Positions 2,552 to 60,049 of a DNA stretch of 60,049 nt are shown here, piece by piece (position 1 is the stretch's first letter; each line of letters begins with the position of its first letter). The DNA comes from an uncultured Candidatus Saccharibacteria bacterium (lineage in GTDB: Bacteria > Patescibacteriota > Saccharimonadia > Saccharimonadales > Saccharimonadaceae), in the NCBI GenBank assembly GCA_949480205.1, contig CASXXK010000003.1:1-60049 (forward strand), read 5' to 3'. A model generated the notes under the pieces. That model saw only the letters and a program-made list of their open reading frames with translations. It did not search any database and had not been told where the DNA came from. The position numbers were made by a program, and so were the translations under genes.

Positions 2552-3514
2552 ATGCAGCGCGAAGAATTTACAATCAAAAGTCAACACGATAATCTGGAAC
2601 TGGGCGTTAGTCTAAGAATCCCAGCCGGCAAACCACGGGGGATTTTGCAGCTAGTGCACGGCATGGCGGAGCACCGTGAACGTTACCATGATTTTATGGA
2701 TTATTGCGCTAAGCAGGGATTTGTAGTAATCATTCACGACCATCGTGGACACGGTGCGAGCGTCAAATCCGCCGAAGATTATGGCTATTTTTATCAAAAT
2801 GGCGTACAGGGAATTATTGATGACGTGCATCAAGTGACGGAATATGTTAAGCATCGATTTCCAGGGTTGCCACTGACGCTGCTTGGACATAGTATGGGTT
2901 CACTAGTAGTGCGCTGCTATATGCAGCAGTATGATGCGGATGTGGATGGACTGATAGTCTGCGGCTCGCCCAGTAAGCGTATTAGTGCGGGCACCGGTAA
3001 GTTGATTGCTAAATTCTTGCAAATCTTTCATGGTGATAAATATCGCAGTAAATTCGTCAACCAACTAGCGTTCGGCGGGTATAACCAGAAATCTGCCAAG
3101 TTAGCGCGTCAAAACGGCCAGCATGTAGACATGAATGGGCATTATCCAACGCCAAACTCTTGGATTGTAAGTGACCCAGCAGTAGTGGCAGCTTACGATG
3201 CTGACCCGCGCGATGGCTTCACCTTCACTTTGAATGGCTTTGAGACACTGTTTGGTTTGGTGCAACGGGCGTATAGTAAGCAGGGTTGGAAAATGGCGAA
3301 CCCTGAGGCGCCGATTTTCTTTATTTCCGGTGCTGACGATCCGTGCTTGATTAGCCATAAAGATTTCGCCAAGGCGGTGAATTTTATGCGCCAACGAGGG
3401 TATCAGCATGTTACGAGCAAGCTTTATCCTGGCATGCGGCACGAAATCCTCAACGAAGTCGGTAAAGCAGAAGTTTGGCGCGATGTGGTGGTGCATTTGC
3501 AAAGCGTGCTATAA
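2552..3514 (+). CDS. Alpha/beta hydrolase, monoacylglycerol-lipase-like
   Basis: A serine hydrolase of the Hydrolase_4 (lysophospholipase/monoacylglycerol lipase) type, 320 residues, without a signal peptide. Key parts are LVHGMAEHRERY (oxyanion region), HDHRGHGAS, the nucleophile elbow GHSMGS with Ser114, the acid-bearing SGADDPC, and the terminal His in GMRHEIL. Its likely role is processing host-derived lipids, which is inferred. TATAAT at 2540-2545 ends 6 nt before the ATG and no ribosome-binding site is visible, so the mRNA is probably leaderless; TTGACA lies at 2515-2520. Confidence 0.9.
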   Translation: MQREEFTIKSQHDNLELGVSLRIPAGKPRGILQLVHGMAEHRERYHDFMDYCAKQGFVVIIHDHRGHGASVKSAEDYGYFYQNGVQGIIDDVHQVTEYVKHRFPGLPLTLLGHSMGSLVVRCYMQQYDADVDGLIVCGSPSKRISAGTGKLIAKFLQIFHGDKYRSKFVNQLAFGGYNQKSAKLARQNGQHVDMNGHYPTPNSWIVSDPAVVAAYDADPRDGFTFTLNGFETLFGLVQRAYSKQGWKMANPEAPIFFISGADDPCLISHKDFAKAVNFMRQRGYQHVTSKLYPGMRHEILNEVGKAEVWRDVVVHLQSVL

Positions 3515-3533
3515 TATAATTATTATCAATTAA

Positions 3534-3625
3534 TAGAGTAGGATCAAAATAGTTAAGACTTGCGGGACGGGAAGTTGTTCGCAAGGCAAGGGTAACCGCT
3601 GATTTTGGTTCGCATTCCGCTATGA
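3534..3625 (+). promoter_or_regulatory. Candidate tetrahydrofolate (THF) riboswitch
   Basis: The leader of the ECF S gene carries the ordered landmarks of the class I THF aptamer: GAGTAG at the 5' side, ATCAAAAT pairing with ATTTTGGT (P2), GTTAAG, a CTTGCG/CGCAAG stem (P3) enclosing GGACGGGAAG, then GCAAGGGTAACCGCTGA and GCATTCCGCT at the 3' side. CCGCTAT (3617-3623) can also pair with ATAGCGG (3652-3658) next to the AAGGAG ribosome-binding site, a plausible translation switch. It fits a folate transporter operon. I matched it by eye, not by covariance model. Confidence 0.75.
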
Positions 3626-3670
3626 TGAGAGTGCTTTTGCCAACCTCGTAAATAGCGGGGAAGGAGTTTT

Positions 3671-4249
3671 ATGTCAAACCACCACCCCGCGTCCCGGACC
3701 ATGCCACGGGCGCGCAAGGTAATTTTAACCGCAATTTTGATTGCACTCACGATTGTGCTACAGCGCTTGTTGGCGTTCCGGACGCCAATTATCCAAATTA
3801 ACTTCATGTTTGTGCCGATAATGTTGGCCGGGATGTTGCTGGGCTGGCCAGGAGCGACTTTTGTCGCAACGGTAGCGGACTTGATCGGCGCGATATTGTT
3901 CCCATCGGGTAGCTTTTTCTTTGGTTACACACTGACGGCAATCTTGACCGGGTTTACGGCGGGAATTTGTTTGTATCGCCCCGACGGTGTCAAGCTTGAC
4001 CGTAATTTTGTAATTCGGCTGGTACTTTGCATCTTGATTATTACGGGCGTCTTAAACGGTGGGCTAAATACAATTTGGGTCTTGATGATGACAGGCGACG
4101 CAAGTAATATTATTGTGCCGGTGCGAATCGTGAAGCAATTAGTGATGGCGCCGATTATGCTGTTGACGATGTTGGCGCTGATGAAAATCTTTGCTCCGCG
4201 CCTGAATCGCCTGCTGGGAGTTGAGCGTGATCAGACTCAAACAGTTTAG
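3671..4249 (+). CDS. folT: ECF transporter substrate-binding (S) component, folate family
   Basis: Integral membrane S component of an energy-coupling-factor vitamin importer, 192 residues with about six hydrophobic segments after a short basic N terminus. GLNTIWVLMMTG followed by an Arg-containing helix resembles FolT proteins, and the THF-type riboswitch upstream supports folate as substrate. ATG follows AAGGAG by 5 nt. Its stop overlaps the A-component start, so S, A and T are made together. Folate specificity is inferred from family pattern and riboswitch; another vitamin is possible. Confidence 0.8.
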   Translation: MSNHHPASRTMPRARKVILTAILIALTIVLQRLLAFRTPIIQINFMFVPIMLAGMLLGWPGATFVATVADLIGAILFPSGSFFFGYTLTAILTGFTAGICLYRPDGVKLDRNFVIRLVLCILIITGVLNGGLNTIWVLMMTGDASNIIVPVRIVKQLVMAPIMLLTMLALMKIFAPRLNRLLGVERDQTQTV

Positions 4250-8803: not shown

Positions 8804-8880
8804 CGTACCTCCTATTAGCACTTCCATTATACCACGAAAGTGCTTGTGTGGGTAAAACTTCCGCATTTTTATGTTCTCTC

Positions 8881-9087
8881 CATGTCTAATACAGTACTAA
8901 GGCAGCGGAGGGGGAAACCGTAGTGGCGATATCTATAGTATGATGGCTTAACGATGTTAGAACTGGAACTGAAGCTAAGGTAGTAAGCGTAGTCAATATC
9001 AGAGTAAGACCATGATGACCACCAACTACCACTGTGGCTAGCGCTCCAGAACTTACCATCGTGCAAAACAAGATCTCCGCTGCGCAC
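8881..9087 (-). repeat. Cassette B: complete silent cassette
   Basis: Reads VRSGDLVLHDGKFWS...GSWWSSW...YAYYLSF...RYRHYGFPLRCLSTVLDM from a GTG in the 5' core GTGCGCAGCGG. No ribosome-binding site precedes it. The 3' core is at 8881-8917. It is unpaired: 5' of it is about 50 bp without a second cassette. It lies between the start of the membrane-protein operon and the terminator of the nuclease gene. Confidence 0.85.
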
Positions 9088-9142
9088 GGAATACTGAAGA
9101 GCTAAGCTTAGGTTAGCGCTAAATTCTTTAAGCGTTATTTAT

Positions 9143-9189
9143 AAAAAAGAGGATAGCAACCGGCGCATTACAGTTCCGGTCCTATCCTC
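9143..9189 (-). terminator. Rho-independent terminator of the nuclease gene
   Basis: On the minus strand GAGGATAG + ACCGG stems pair across a 12-nt loop, followed by TTTTTT (9143-9148). It lies 22 nt after the stop codon of the gene at 9211-9627. Confidence 0.85.
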
Positions 9190-9210
9190 GCTGGATTTAG
9201 TATACTATAA

Positions 9211-9627
9211 CTATTTGATGAAGTCAATGATTTTATGCGTTTTTGTAATTATCATAAGTCGTTTGAGCCTTTTGAGATCATGAAAATTTTTCTTTAACTC
9301 TTGTAAACATTTGGTTTGATGAATTTTGATGCGATATAGGTCTATAACTAGATTTTCTGATTGATGTGCTGCTCTGTGCAGGGTATTTTGAATTAAGTAT
9401 TTACCCTCACCTTTTGGTGCTTTTATTTCCCACTCTAGGCCCGACATAATTATATCTGCAGTACGCTCACCTTGTTTATTGCTTTTGGGGATGAGCTCAA
9501 TATCAAAACTTTGGGATAGCAAAAAATTTACCGTCCTTTGTTCGTGAAGTTGCAGGATGACGCCATTAGTAATATATAGACCTTGTTTTTGGTCTTTCGT
9601 CTGACTTTGTAGCATAGTTCGCTTCAT
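9211..9627 (-). CDS. CdiA-CT-like PD-(D/E)XK nuclease
   Basis: A stand-alone 138-residue protein that resembles the C-terminal tRNase-type toxin domain of contact-dependent inhibition proteins. It has HEQRTVNFLLSQSF, then RTADIIMSGLEWEIKAPKGEG with the D...E-x-K catalytic pattern, and QNTLHRAAHQSENLVIDL. No signal peptide or delivery domain and no obvious immunity gene are present, so it may be an orphan toxin, a housekeeping nuclease or part of the cassette system. It lies between cassettes B and C. The start codon is not backed by a clear ribosome-binding site. Confidence 0.7.
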   Translation of the reverse strand: MKRTMLQSQTKDQKQGLYITNGVILQLHEQRTVNFLLSQSFDIELIPKSNKQGERTADIIMSGLEWEIKAPKGEGKYLIQNTLHRAAHQSENLVIDLYRIKIHQTKCLQELKKNFHDLKRLKRLMIITKTHKIIDFIK

Positions 9628-9692
9628 GAACTTAAGCCTAGCACATCTCGAGACAAATTACCAAGCGCAAGCATGACTCCTGTCTACTCTTG

Positions 9693-9916
9693 CATGTCTA
9701 ATACAGTACTAAGGCAGCGGAGGGGGAAACCATACCAACGATTGCTTGGCCCAGCCGATGAATAGACGCTTGAGGCACTAAAGTCGAGGTTACGCGCAGC
9801 GGCTGAAGTTGAGGAAGTGTAGGCAGTTGCTCGTAACGACCAATAGTAACCAGTGAGGCCAGCATTCCTAAAAACACCAGCAGTGCTACTGAAGTTAAAC
9901 CCCCCGCTGCGCACGA
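9693..9916 (-). repeat. Cassette C: complete silent cassette, paired with D
   Basis: From GTG at 9914: VRSGGFNFSSTAGVF...TGYYWSLR...ARNLDFSASSVYSSAGPSNRWYGFPLRCLSTVLDM. The 3' core is at 9693-9729 and the 5' core at 9904-9915. It faces cassette D head to head across a 12-nt spacer. Confidence 0.88.
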
Positions 9917-9941
9917 AGTAATCTGGTCTCGTGCGCAGCGG
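9904..9941. repeat. Palindromic joint of cassettes C and D
   Basis: CCGCTGCGCACGA (9904-9916), spacer AGTAATCTGGTC, TCGTGCGCAGCGG (9929-9941): a perfect 13-bp inverted repeat. The same spacer sequence recurs in the I/J joint at 53780-53817. Confidence 0.9.
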
Positions 9942-10128
9942 ATTCATTTATCCAGTTGATGGTAGGTATTGGAACGTTACCAGCGGCCGTTGGTGGTCTT
10001 CCCGGTCTTACTCTGATACTGCCCGCGCTTACTCCCTCGATTTTGGTGAATCTGGCGTATTCTCATCGAGCAATAACGATTTGTACCGTGGTTTCCCCCT
10101 CCGCTGCCTTAGTACTGTATTAGACATG
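9929..10128 (+). repeat. Cassette D: complete silent cassette
   Basis: From GTG at 9931: VRSGFIYPVDGRYWNVTSGRWWSSRSYSDTARAYSLDF...LYRGFPLRCLSTVLDM, stop at 10129. The 3' core ends at 10128, only 14 bp before the -10 box of the P-type ATPase gene. With C it forms a 436-bp unit with inverted ends of about 36 bp. Confidence 0.88.
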
Positions 10129-10153
10129 TAGAATGATATGCTATACTTAACTT

Positions 10154-33509: not shown

Positions 33510-33733
33510 CATGTCTAATACAGTACTAAGGCAGCGGAGGGAGAAAGCGAACCAACGTTCGCTGGGACCATATGATGGGTTGACGCCTGAAGCACCAAAT
33601 GCAAGACTATAACCACTGGGGACTGCTGTACCATCGCTGCGAGTAGATGTACCTCGTGACGGCCACCAATAACCGTTAGCGCCAGCATACCAAGCTTTGC
33701 CGTCGTAGAGACTAAGACGTCCGCTGCGCACGA
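33510..33733 (-). repeat. Cassette E: complete silent cassette
   Basis: From GTG at 33731: VRSGRLSLYDGKAWYAGANGYWWPSRG...SGYSLAFGASGVNPSYGPSERWFAFSLRCLSTVLDM. FPLRC is FSLRC here. The 3' core is at 33510-33546, 22 bp after the DUF362 stop. It is head to head with F across 116 bp instead of 12. Confidence 0.87.
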
Positions 33734-33734
33734 A

Positions 33735-33838
33735 AAAGTGGTACGCTTTTGCATTTTTGTACCACTTGTTTTTACATCTCACCTCTGTTAATGATAATTG
33801 TTGACTGGTACAAAATTTAAAATTTGTACCAGTCTGAA
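33735..33838. other. Two hairpins between cassettes E and F
   Basis: AAGTGGTAC pairs with GTACCACTT (about 33737-33769), and ACTGGTACAAA with TTTGTACCAGT (about 33805-33834), both with GGTAC/GTACC stems. They replace the short 12-nt spacer found in the other pairs. Only non-coding sequence is seen here. Confidence 0.55.
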
Positions 33839-33849
33839 CTATTGGAGCT

Positions 33850-34066
33850 TCGTGCGCAGCGGGTTACTTAATCCGAATGATGGCAAATCTTGGCGCATTG
33901 GCTTTGACGGACGCTATTGGTCGACACGCGAAGCAAGCATGCGAGACGATGGTACTGATATGCCCAGTGCTTATTATCTGTATTTTAGTACTGGAGTATA
34001 TGCATCAAATGGCCCGACCAATCAATCTAACGCTTTCCCCCTCCGCTGCCTTAGTACTGTATTAGA
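33850..34066 (+). repeat. Cassette F: complete cassette with altered end
   Basis: From GTG at 33852: VRSGLLNPNDGKSWRIGFDGRYWSTRE...SAYYLYFSTGVYASNGPTNQSNAFPLRCLSTVLE. The 3' core is intact up to CTGTATTAGA and then diverges (ATATG instead of CATG), marking the true boundary of the repeat. Twenty bases further on is the -10 box of the NERD gene. Confidence 0.87.
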
Positions 34067-52737: not shown

Positions 52738-52949
52738 CATGTCTAATACAGTACTAAGGCAGCGGAGGGGGAAAGCGATATAGCGCTCGCTATTAAGCAA
52801 TGGATTAATAGCACCAGTAAGTTGTATATAAAGAACGTATGCATAAGTTCCATTAGAATAAGCTCTTGATGACCACCAGGCACCACCCGCACCAGCATGC
52901 CAAAAAGCATTACCAGCGCTGAGTAAACCAATCCATCCGCTGCGCACGA
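52738..52949 (-). repeat. Cassette G: complete silent cassette, paired with H
   Basis: From GTG at 52947: VRSGWIGLLSAGNAFWHAGAGGAWWSSRAYSNGTYAYVLYIQ...SERYIAFPLRCLSTVLDM. The 3' core is at 52738-52774. Confidence 0.88.
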
Positions 52950-52974
52950 AATTAACGGATCTCGTGCGCAGCGG
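52937..52974. repeat. Palindromic joint of cassettes G and H
   Basis: CCGCTGCGCACGA, 12-nt spacer AATTAACGGATC, TCGTGCGCAGCGG: perfect 13-bp inverted repeat with the same spacer length as the C/D and I/J joints. Confidence 0.9.
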
Positions 52975-53194
52975 GGCTGTAGCCCCATCCAGGGGTGCTG
53001 TGTCTGGTAATGCTGGTGTCTTATGGATTATGGGTATAAACGGACATTTTTGGTCTTCACGTAGTTACGATAACTCCGACGCGGCTTATGGAATGACCTT
53101 TAATGCAAGTAGCGTAATCCCATCTTATGGCAGTATCTACATTTACCGTTACTACGCTTTCCCCCTCCGCTGCCTTAGTACTGTATTAGACATG
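52962..53194 (+). repeat. Cassette H: complete silent cassette
   Basis: From GTG at 52964: VRSGAVAPSRGAVSGNAGVLW...NGHFWSSRSYDNSDAAYGMTFNASSVIPSYG...YRYYAFPLRCLSTVLDM. Stop TAG at 53195. It ends 62 bp from tRNA-Tyr. Confidence 0.88.
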
Positions 53195-53573: not shown

Positions 53574-53792
53574 CATGTCTAATACAGTACTAAGGCAACG
53601 GAGGGGGGTAACCGTAGTAACGCTGACTAAAGTTTGATGGACTAAGGGTTGAAGCGTAGATTTGAAGATTATAAGCAGTAGAGGCGCTAGTGGTAGAGTA
53701 TGCTGCGCCTCTGGATGACCAGCTATACCCCCACTCTACTGGCATTCTGATAGTATCGACATTGGTTAGGTATATAACCCCGCTGCGCACGA
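53574..53792 (-). repeat. Cassette I: frameshifted silent cassette, paired with J
   Basis: From GTG at 53790: VRSGVIYLTNVDTIRMPVEWGYSWSSRG...TAYNLQIYASTLSPSNFSQRYYGY, then one extra base in the C-run of the 3' core shifts the frame to PPPLP and a stop. The core also has one substitution (CCGTTGCC). The conserved Arg-Cys pair is lost. Confidence 0.88.
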
Positions 53793-53817
53793 AGTAATCT
53801 GGTCCCGTGCGCAGCGG
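53780..53817. repeat. Palindromic joint of cassettes I and J
   Basis: CCGCTGCGCACGA, spacer AGTAATCTGGTC (identical to the C/D spacer), CCGTGCGCAGCGG. One mismatch at the inner stem position. Confidence 0.9.
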
Positions 53818-54007
53818 GTATATCCACTTACCTACTACTGCTGGTACTTTGAGGGACGCTGGCTTCGGTGCTGTCTATTGGTCGTCGCGTGCTGATGCTA
53901 CTACTGCGTACTACCTCTACTTCAGTACTGCCGTCTACCCGTCGGATGGCCCGGCTTACCGTTACGACGCTTTCCCTCTCCGCTGCCTTAGTACTGTATT
54001 AGACATG
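53805..54007 (+). repeat. Cassette J: complete silent cassette
   Basis: From GTG at 53807: VRSGYIHLPTTAGTLRDAGFGAVYWSSRADATTAYYLYFSTAVYPSDGPAYRYDAFPLRCLSTVLDM. Its N-terminal block (VRSGYIHLPTTAGTLR) is closest to cassette K (VRSGYIHISTIAGTLR) on the other side of rpsL-rpsG. The frame continues about 50 codons past the core without a stop. Confidence 0.88.
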
Positions 54008-55132: not shown

Positions 55133-55344
55133 CATGTCTAATACAGTACTAAGGCAGCGGAGGGGGAGACCGTAGTAACGGTCACTACGGTACGACGAAT
55201 TCACAATGCCACTATATTGCCAGTACAAATCATTTGCATGAGTATTAACGGCGTCAGATCTTGATGACCACCATGCGCCTTCCATGCCAACATATCGTAA
55301 AGTGCCAGCAATTGTAGATATATGGATATACCCGCTGCGCACGA
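55133..55344 (-). repeat. Cassette K: complete silent cassette
   Basis: From GTG at 55342: VRSGYIHISTIAGTLRYVGMEGAWWSSRSDAVNTHANDLYWQYSGIVNSS...RYYGLPLRCLSTVLDM (FPLRC is LPLRC). Unpaired. Next to its 5' core is a GTGTTGTA/TACAACAC hairpin (55346-55366), then the nuclease gene. Confidence 0.87.
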
Positions 55345-55383: not shown

Positions 55384-55770
55384 GTGAAGTTTGATATTAT
55401 TGTCTCTACTAATTTGAGGCCAATGCCTACTAATGACGAAATTACTGTTGCGGAGGTGCTGGCTAAATTTTTTCAAAGCAACATTGAATTTGTCGCTCGT
55501 GGGATTTCACATACACCAGATGTATATGTGATACGTTTTAGCCAGTATTGGGAAATTAAAAATATTCGTGGTAATAGTTCAAAAACAATAGAAAACACAC
55601 TACGAACTGCCCAATATCAATCAGGGAATATAGTTATATCTTTAGCCCGTAGTAAAATGAGTGCCAGCCAAGCGGTTGGCAGGATAAATCTTTGCTTACG
55701 CAGAAGCCATGTTGCCGCAAAGAGAATTATAGTAATCTCCAAAAACAAAAAAGTTCTTGTCGTAAAATGA
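55384..55770 (+). CDS. CdiA-CT-like PD-(D/E)XK nuclease
   Basis: 128 residues, stand-alone. DEITVAEVLAKFFQSNIEFV is followed by HTPDVYVIRFSQYWEIKNIRGN, with the Asp...Glu-x-Lys pattern, and IENTLRTAQYQSGNIVISL, the same order of motifs as the nuclease at 9211-9627 but with low identity. It resembles the tRNase-type toxin domain of CDI systems. TAAGAT (55372-55377) ends 6 nt before the GTG start, which suggests a leaderless mRNA. It lies 39 nt from cassette K, divergent from it. No immunity gene recognised. Confidence 0.7.
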   Translation: MKFDIIVSTNLRPMPTNDEITVAEVLAKFFQSNIEFVARGISHTPDVYVIRFSQYWEIKNIRGNSSKTIENTLRTAQYQSGNIVISLARSKMSASQAVGRINLCLRRSHVAAKRIIVISKNKKVLVVK

Positions 55771-59994: not shown

Positions 59995-60049
59995 ATGTCT
60001 AATACAGTACTAAGGCAGCGGAGGGGGAAAGCGAAACTACGGGAATGCG
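59995..60049 (-). repeat. Cassette L: 3' part, cut by window edge
   Basis: The minus strand reads HSRSFAFPLRCLSTVLDI. The 3' core is intact except that CATG is TATG at its end, so the last Met codon becomes Ile. The 5' part lies outside the window. Confidence 0.85.

Follow-up and report, generated by a model that had tools for sequence, protein, structure and literature searches.

DGRs rewrite expressed genes in place, and the old variant is erased. Neisseria pilS/pilE, Treponema tprK and Borrelia vls are silent-cassette gene conversion systems. With DGRs (Bordetella phage BPP-1 type and CPR DGRs), the system described here shares TR/VR pairs, adenine-biased changes, a C-terminal VR, a template located in a structured RNA, and a GC-rich 3′ stretch that is common to TR and VR and is followed by differing sequence (IMH-like). 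Moreover, canonical DGRs of the same genus use the same domain. However, 10-12 templates are dispersed here, and 65 or more VRs lie in startless intergenic cassettes, mostly head-to-head. Like pilS/pilE, tprK and vls, the system comprises many silent partial copies of a surface gene, with conserved flanks and with segmental copying, presumably into one expressed gene. Unlike in those cases, its diversity bears a retroelement signature from RNA-embedded templates, and the donors are dispersed head-to-head pairs. Several templates and many variable regions per genome are also a feature of multi-VR DGRs, such as that of Pseudomonas costantinii with 6 TRs (PMC6642488), and Thiohalocapsa PB-PSB1 contains several complete DGRs (PMC10907252). 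The VRs of multi-VR DGRs mostly overlap target-gene ORFs, whereas none of the complete cassettes found here (65 in this genome and 68 in a sister species) forms the end of a longer gene. Finally, BPP-1 requires a hairpin downstream of its VR (PMC3240598); in the present case, the perfect hairpin is located at the 5′ joint instead. No earlier report of silent DGR cassettes was found in the literature searched, subscription journals and preprints being outside its coverage.

The window, that is, the whole stretch of 60,049 nucleotides analysed, is contig C3 of a Saccharibacterium genome of 855 kb in 28 contigs, 87.6% complete. The DNA inspected comprised the stretches around cassettes, templates, RT and FISUMP genes. 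With at most 2 mismatches allowed, the window contains 11 copies of the core CCGCTGCGCACGA, versus 1.6 expected and a maximum of 5 over 100 shuffles. As proposed in a sequence-only reading of this DNA, cassettes C/D, G/H and I/J face each other head-to-head across 12-nt joints, the right-hand core of I/J, CCGTGCGCAGCGG, being one mismatch off. The lengths of 434-457 bp given there for the units also hold, with 436 bp for C/D (9693-10128), 457 bp for G/H (52738-53194, joint AATTAACGGATC) and 434 bp for I/J (53574-54007). The 12-nt spacer is indeed identical in C/D and I/J (AGTAATCTGGTC in both), and E/F has the described 116-nt joint with two hairpins. The inverted ends are real, with 40 bp that are 100% complementary in C/D, but these "ends" are where the coding sequence of each arm has its conserved 3′ terminus. 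Similarly, the arms are variable as stated, but they are DGR-type variable regions made of in-frame coding sequence. The features of the window are collected in Table 1. In addition, positions 3532-3624 (+) of the window contain a tetrahydrofolate riboswitch (Rfam RF01831, 56.5 bits).

Table 1 Cassettes, joints and nuclease-like ORFs along the window.
Feature	Position	Strand	Basis or remark
3′ end of a cassette, cut by contig start	1..57	+	3′ core at 30-53; the sister assembly also breaks at this locus
Cassette A, single, VRSGDLVLHDG...GFPLRCLSTVLDM	8881..9089	-	cassette search
CdiA_C (PF18451) nuclease-like ORF, 138 aa, between A and C	9211..9627	-	Pfam E=7e-13; E/D/ExK conserved in alignment
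Cassette C, frame intact, VRSGGFNFSSTAG...GFPLRCLSTVLDM	9693..9916	-	translation
12-nt joint of C/D, AGTAATCTGGTC	9917..9928	.	flanked by two 13-nt inverted heads; 13-bp stem if folded
Cassette D, frame intact, VRSGFIYPVDG...GFPLRCLSTVLDM	9929..10128	+	translation
Cassette E	33510..33733	-	DNA identical to C2:13530 elsewhere in the genome, where the joint is different
E/F joint, 116 nt, two hairpins around CCTCTGTTA	33734..33849	.	sequence
Cassette F	33850..34066	+	cassette search
Cassette G	52738..52949	-	cassette search
12-nt joint of G/H, AATTAACGGATC	52950..52961	.	sequence
Cassette H	52962..53194	+	cassette search
Cassette I	53574..53792	-	sole frameshifted complete cassette of this genome
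12-nt joint of I/J, AGTAATCTGGTC	53793..53804	.	identical to C/D joint
Cassette J	53805..54007	+	nearest of all cassettes to a template (C12:2191); 14/23 differences at template A
Cassette K, single	55133..55344	-	cassette search
CdiA_C (PF18451) nuclease-like ORF beside head of K	55384..55770	+	Pfam E=6.5e-9
3′ end of a cassette, cut by contig end	59994..60049	-	3′ core at 59998-60021

Between the 13-nt head core (GTG CGC AGC GG) and the 3′ core, each arm stays in frame and reads VRSG...(F/Y)xLRCLSTVL(D/G)M, an example being the intact reading-frame fragment VRSG…FPLRCLSTVL. The ATG of the 3′ core usually has a stop right after it. When compared with Pfam, the arms gave a sub-threshold match only, which lies at the C-terminus of Fib_succ_major (E=0.09). 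The assignment of the arms to the C-terminal portion of a Fib_succ_major (FISUMP) surface domain is firmer from relatives than from Pfam, because full-length FISUMP proteins of the same genus end in a homologous segment. The AlphaFold model of the FISUMP domain had a mean pLDDT of 42 and was unusable.

Genome-wide, 84 copies of the 3′ core, 86 protein matches and 65 complete cassettes were identified; in the sister species, G290, 68 cassettes and 12 templates were counted. Many contigs stop within a 3′ core, showing that these repeats break the assembly. The frames upstream of the cassettes are short and mostly startless, so that the cassettes, like the donors of silent-cassette systems, are silent and devoid of start signals. 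Long open frames at C19:5892, C5:42547 and C2:13918 were considered as expressed genes and rejected, as they result from downstream read-through. Among the 129 unique cassettes of the two species, none contains an in-frame stop and 127 keep the frame; only 6-8% of shuffles are open, and the other frames of the same cassettes are mostly closed. Non-coding MITE arms were therefore rejected, nearly all arms being in frame.

Ten further copies in this genome, in which Asn codons abound, have no 3′ core and behave as template repeats. The templates of both species start with AAAGATCGTGAAG or AAAGATCGTGAGG, 135-191 nt upstream, and end with GGTGCCGATCTT. Nineteen templates were folded jointly, with their 5′ and 3′ parts joined. 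Besides the closing stem AAAGATCG/CGATCTTT, the consensus fold has two covarying elements, the stem GAAGTTC/GAACTTC and the hairpin GGCTAnGGTC; of its 31 pairs, 13 show compensatory changes. Because the closing stem never varies, covariation is no test of this stem. A covariance model of the leader recovered each of the 22 templates, with no further hit in 548 kb of the two genomes; it also matched a third MAG contig (54 bits), a leader copy beside the DGR reverse transcriptase of G151 (IGNLTSQ and YVDD motifs, E=0.006) and another beside the RT of a DGR locus in G062 (E=0.02). No Rfam family for the template RNA was found in the sources scanned. At the 3′ end, CCCCCTCCGCTGCC is common to VRs and TRs and is followed by AGTACTGTATTAG in VRs and by GCCGCGG..GGTGCCGATC in TRs, forming a putative IMH. 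Elsewhere, a repeated CCGTGAACTTCTCCAAAAATACGTG element lies near an Asn-rich template-like segment in another member of the genus (G134, L161:199, 5426 and 5931). A contig of an "uncultured bacterium" MAG (CAMWUN010000070.1, L204) carries a cassette and a template RNA of the present kind (554-739 and 3445-3900), adjoining two ORFs that resemble tyrosine recombinases and genes that seem foreign to Saccharibacteria; either transfer or misassembly may be the cause.

Comparison of the cassettes with their closest template revealed an excess of transversions from A, with 155/700 versus 183/2672 for the three other bases (OR 3.9, p=4e-28). The test includes only cassettes within 29% of a template, and its p-values treat sites as independent, although the cassettes are related and their sites are not. 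Ordinary fragments of a gene family, evolving by mutation and positive selection, could in principle show such a bias if it reflected Asn codons at binding positions, and the variable positions of the template-like copies are indeed rich in AAC/AAT codons. Since selection on Asn codons could yield the bias, it was retested outside these codons, where it persists at positions 1-2 (38/270 for A versus 84/1631 for the others; OR 3.0, p=6e-7) and at third positions (OR 2.5, p=0.004). Furthermore, canonical DGRs in the genus use this segment as their VR, and the templates are embedded in a conserved structured RNA, which makes the gene-family explanation very improbable. Within the genus, G126, G089 and G151 possess canonical DGRs that use the homologous segment as TR and VR; in G126 and G089, which served as positive controls, the TR-VR changes of this segment occur mainly at A. 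In the cassettes, changes at non-A bases are mostly transitions and affect 22-45% of third codon positions versus 6-15% of positions 1-2, a concentration that would be expected for coding DNA under constraint.

Most cassettes are about 60-75% identical to any extant template, the closest reaching 87%, hence recent direct TR-to-VR copies are few. A DGR reverse transcriptase (IGNLTSQ, YVDD) was not found in either of the two incomplete assemblies (88% and 91% complete, both broken at repeats), a difference from known DGRs as far as these assemblies go, and no accessory protein was found. The only RVT_1 match in this genome is AbiP2, and G290 has no RVT_1 match at all. The reverse transcriptase of contig C8 (G000, L124:8002-9507) was thus rejected as the DGR enzyme, being the AbiP2 defence RT (PADLOC E=7e-173). 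Given that many contigs end at repeats, a short RT contig may be missing from both bins. Because no DGR RT was found, we refer to a "DGR-derived archive" and not to a complete DGR.

Among the 174 genomes of the genus that were scanned, the tail core is present only in this genome and in G290 (1 of the 173 others), so that the carriers of the system are two species, plus one doubtful contig. The flanks of the cassettes are about 70-94% identical between the two species, and many sites are shared. Nevertheless, in 26 site-matched comparisons, the cassettes had a mean identity of 56%, versus 57% for random cross-species pairs, whereas templates are recognizable in both species, several at 92-95% identity. 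Hence, the contents of the cassettes are replaced while sites and templates persist. Identical or near-identical cassettes (89-100%) occur at other sites, in 3 cases here and 9 in G290. The copied cassettes that were inspected have different joints or partners, and in most of them the differences are found at the ends. These 3 + 9 copied pairs represent segmental copying between silent sites, as in silent-cassette systems; mosaics among cassettes are rare and the mosaic-tract signal is weak. The archive might also be a relic of a DGR that was active in an ancestor and has since lost its RT, leaving cassettes that now only drift and recombine. This would account for the failure to find the RT in either assembly, for C-to-T and G-to-A changes overlaying the A changes, and for the small number of cassettes near a template. 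However, the lack of stops in 129 cassettes, the third-position bias of the other changes, the full turnover at orthologous sites in the face of conserved templates, and the exact recent copies all argue against mere decay, and we consider a relic unlikely.

Neighbouring cassettes of this genome are arranged head-to-head in 25 cases versus 5 tail-to-tail and 3 tandem, and 49 of the 61 neighbours at most 1.5 kb apart in the two genomes together are head-to-head. Their joints fall into families of 10-12 nt, about 80-88 nt, 114-147 nt and longer. In this genome, 9 joints have exactly 12 nt and 2 have 10 nt; read in a single orientation, 8 of the 9 match AGTAATCYRGYC or deviate from it by one base. 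The idea that TTACT extends the head in all cassettes was rejected, as only 14/65 here and 9/68 in the sister have it. Several unrelated joint families of 80-147 nt (e.g. window 33734-33849) follow the plan palindrome - CTCTGTTA-like motif - palindrome. These families resemble small elements of a mobile or regulatory kind and may represent sequences upstream of CdiA_C ORFs. A CdiA_C (PF18451) ORF with invariant E, D and ExK residues in the alignment is present in some long joints and cassette flanks (E=7e-13, 6.5e-9 and 9.5e-10 for joint ORFs), and an element related to the ORF beside cassette K sits, in the sister genome, in a joint between two heads. Nine such ORFs here and 8 in G290 are above cut-off, versus 0-3 in nine relatives; 11 of these 17 have a cassette or template at a distance of about 1 kb or less, and a further ORF is directly upstream of the full-length FISUMP gene. 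With 12 ORFs counted, this proximity has a p of about 1e-5 if 20% of the genome is so close, the 20% being an estimate. A role of CdiA_C in starting recombination is speculation, and any function of the palindromic joints is likewise speculative; the cruciform at the joint suggested by the sequence-only reading is a possible starting point for recombination.

The same reading had compared the pairs to a MITE or an IS-derived element. Whole blocks are present or absent at three sites when the two species are compared: two pairs, at C9:8123-8565 and C10:5408-6430, and the window block A + ORF + C/D (8877-10130), all three being absent from the sister. No target duplication is evident at any of the three, in agreement with what had been noted from the window. 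The comparison of empty sites supports the gain or loss of whole units, but it is the single cassette and not the pair that is copied. A mobile unit made up of the pair and its inverted ends, and moved in trans by an enzyme that could be the joint CdiA_C-like nuclease, would agree with these whole-unit differences, with the recurrence of joint families at many sites, and with the number of CdiA_C ORFs and their location near cassettes or templates. Yet, unlike in MITEs and IS-derived elements, the ends are coding, no target duplication is seen, and single arms are copied alone, with other joints and partners; moreover, many sites are common to both species, whose flanks are about 80% identical, and among the genes next to cassettes no enzyme with matching ends was noticed. 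As a general explanation it is thus quite improbable, but it may account for how the pairs first spread. Site-specific shuffling of the shufflon or Rci type, at head or tail cores, would fit inverted short cores flanking alternative C-terminal segments. It is very improbable, because the cassettes are found all over the chromosome, the cores are degenerate and form part of the coding sequence, no recombinase is tied to them, and copies are duplicated and not exchanged. As a separate observation, a Xer-like tyrosine recombinase gene directly adjoins a cassette pair in G290 (L229:3675-4649, C2:109674-110648), and the syntenic flank in the present genome (C9:20326-21292) likewise adjoins a cassette pair.

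The sole full-length FISUMP candidate of this genome, C20:12499-13902, has a signal-peptide-like start. Its G290 ortholog on C13 is 82% identical, and both contigs break off immediately ahead of the VR, at the same codon to within 11 nt (G000 C20:13902, L125; G290 C13:14007, L245). A variant-rich gene end would break a short-read assembly in this way, although the assembly may have stopped there for other reasons. The remaining full-length FISUMP genes of the sister were rejected as targets, being devoid of the cassette DNA cores, and no expressed gene with cassette cores was seen in either assembly.

Overall, the cassettes make up an archive of DGR-like variable regions that is silent, codes for protein and conserves its frame; its templates are dispersed and embedded in RNA, its contents turn over fast, and single cassettes are copied. 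We consider it likely that this is the dispersed silent archive of a hypervariable surface protein, made by a DGR system and feeding one expressed gene. The cassettes have apparently been diversified by an adenine-targeting retroelement and are probably held as spare parts for swapping into the active gene. In this explanation, ten scattered template RNAs each carry a TR within a conserved fold closed by AAAGATC...GATCTTT, as shown by sequence, covariation and occurrence in both species. The TRs would be copied with adenine-directed errors into VR cassettes; the A-bias and the TR-to-VR direction are observed, and the copying would proceed by reverse transcription, in trans. Each VR cassette is bounded by the 13-nt head core on one side and on the other by a 3′ end that is GC-rich and IMH-like and precedes the tail core. 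Lying in intergenic DNA with no usable start, often head-to-head, single cassettes are copied between sites, presumably by gene conversion. Since they stay open under protein-level constraint, they must at times be expressed, most likely via recombination into the full-length FISUMP gene C20:12499-13902. Speculatively, a head-to-head arrangement would place the 3′ end of every cassette on the outside, where it stays accessible to homing or recombination, and breaks may be favoured at the joint. A possible but doubtful extension is a two-tier system, in which a many-template retroelement writes an adenine-mutated silent library and gene conversion from the palindromic joints, possibly via the joint-encoded CdiA_C nuclease, rewrites one surface gene, as yeast mating-type cassettes do.

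Saccharibacteria are tiny and host-attached, and how they match host surfaces is a live question. If true, the archive would explain the fragmentation of such genomes at repeats and the missing end of a key surface gene in the assemblies. A store of silent variants under selection would give the DGR a memory and let variants be reused, and would join two mechanisms that are usually treated apart.
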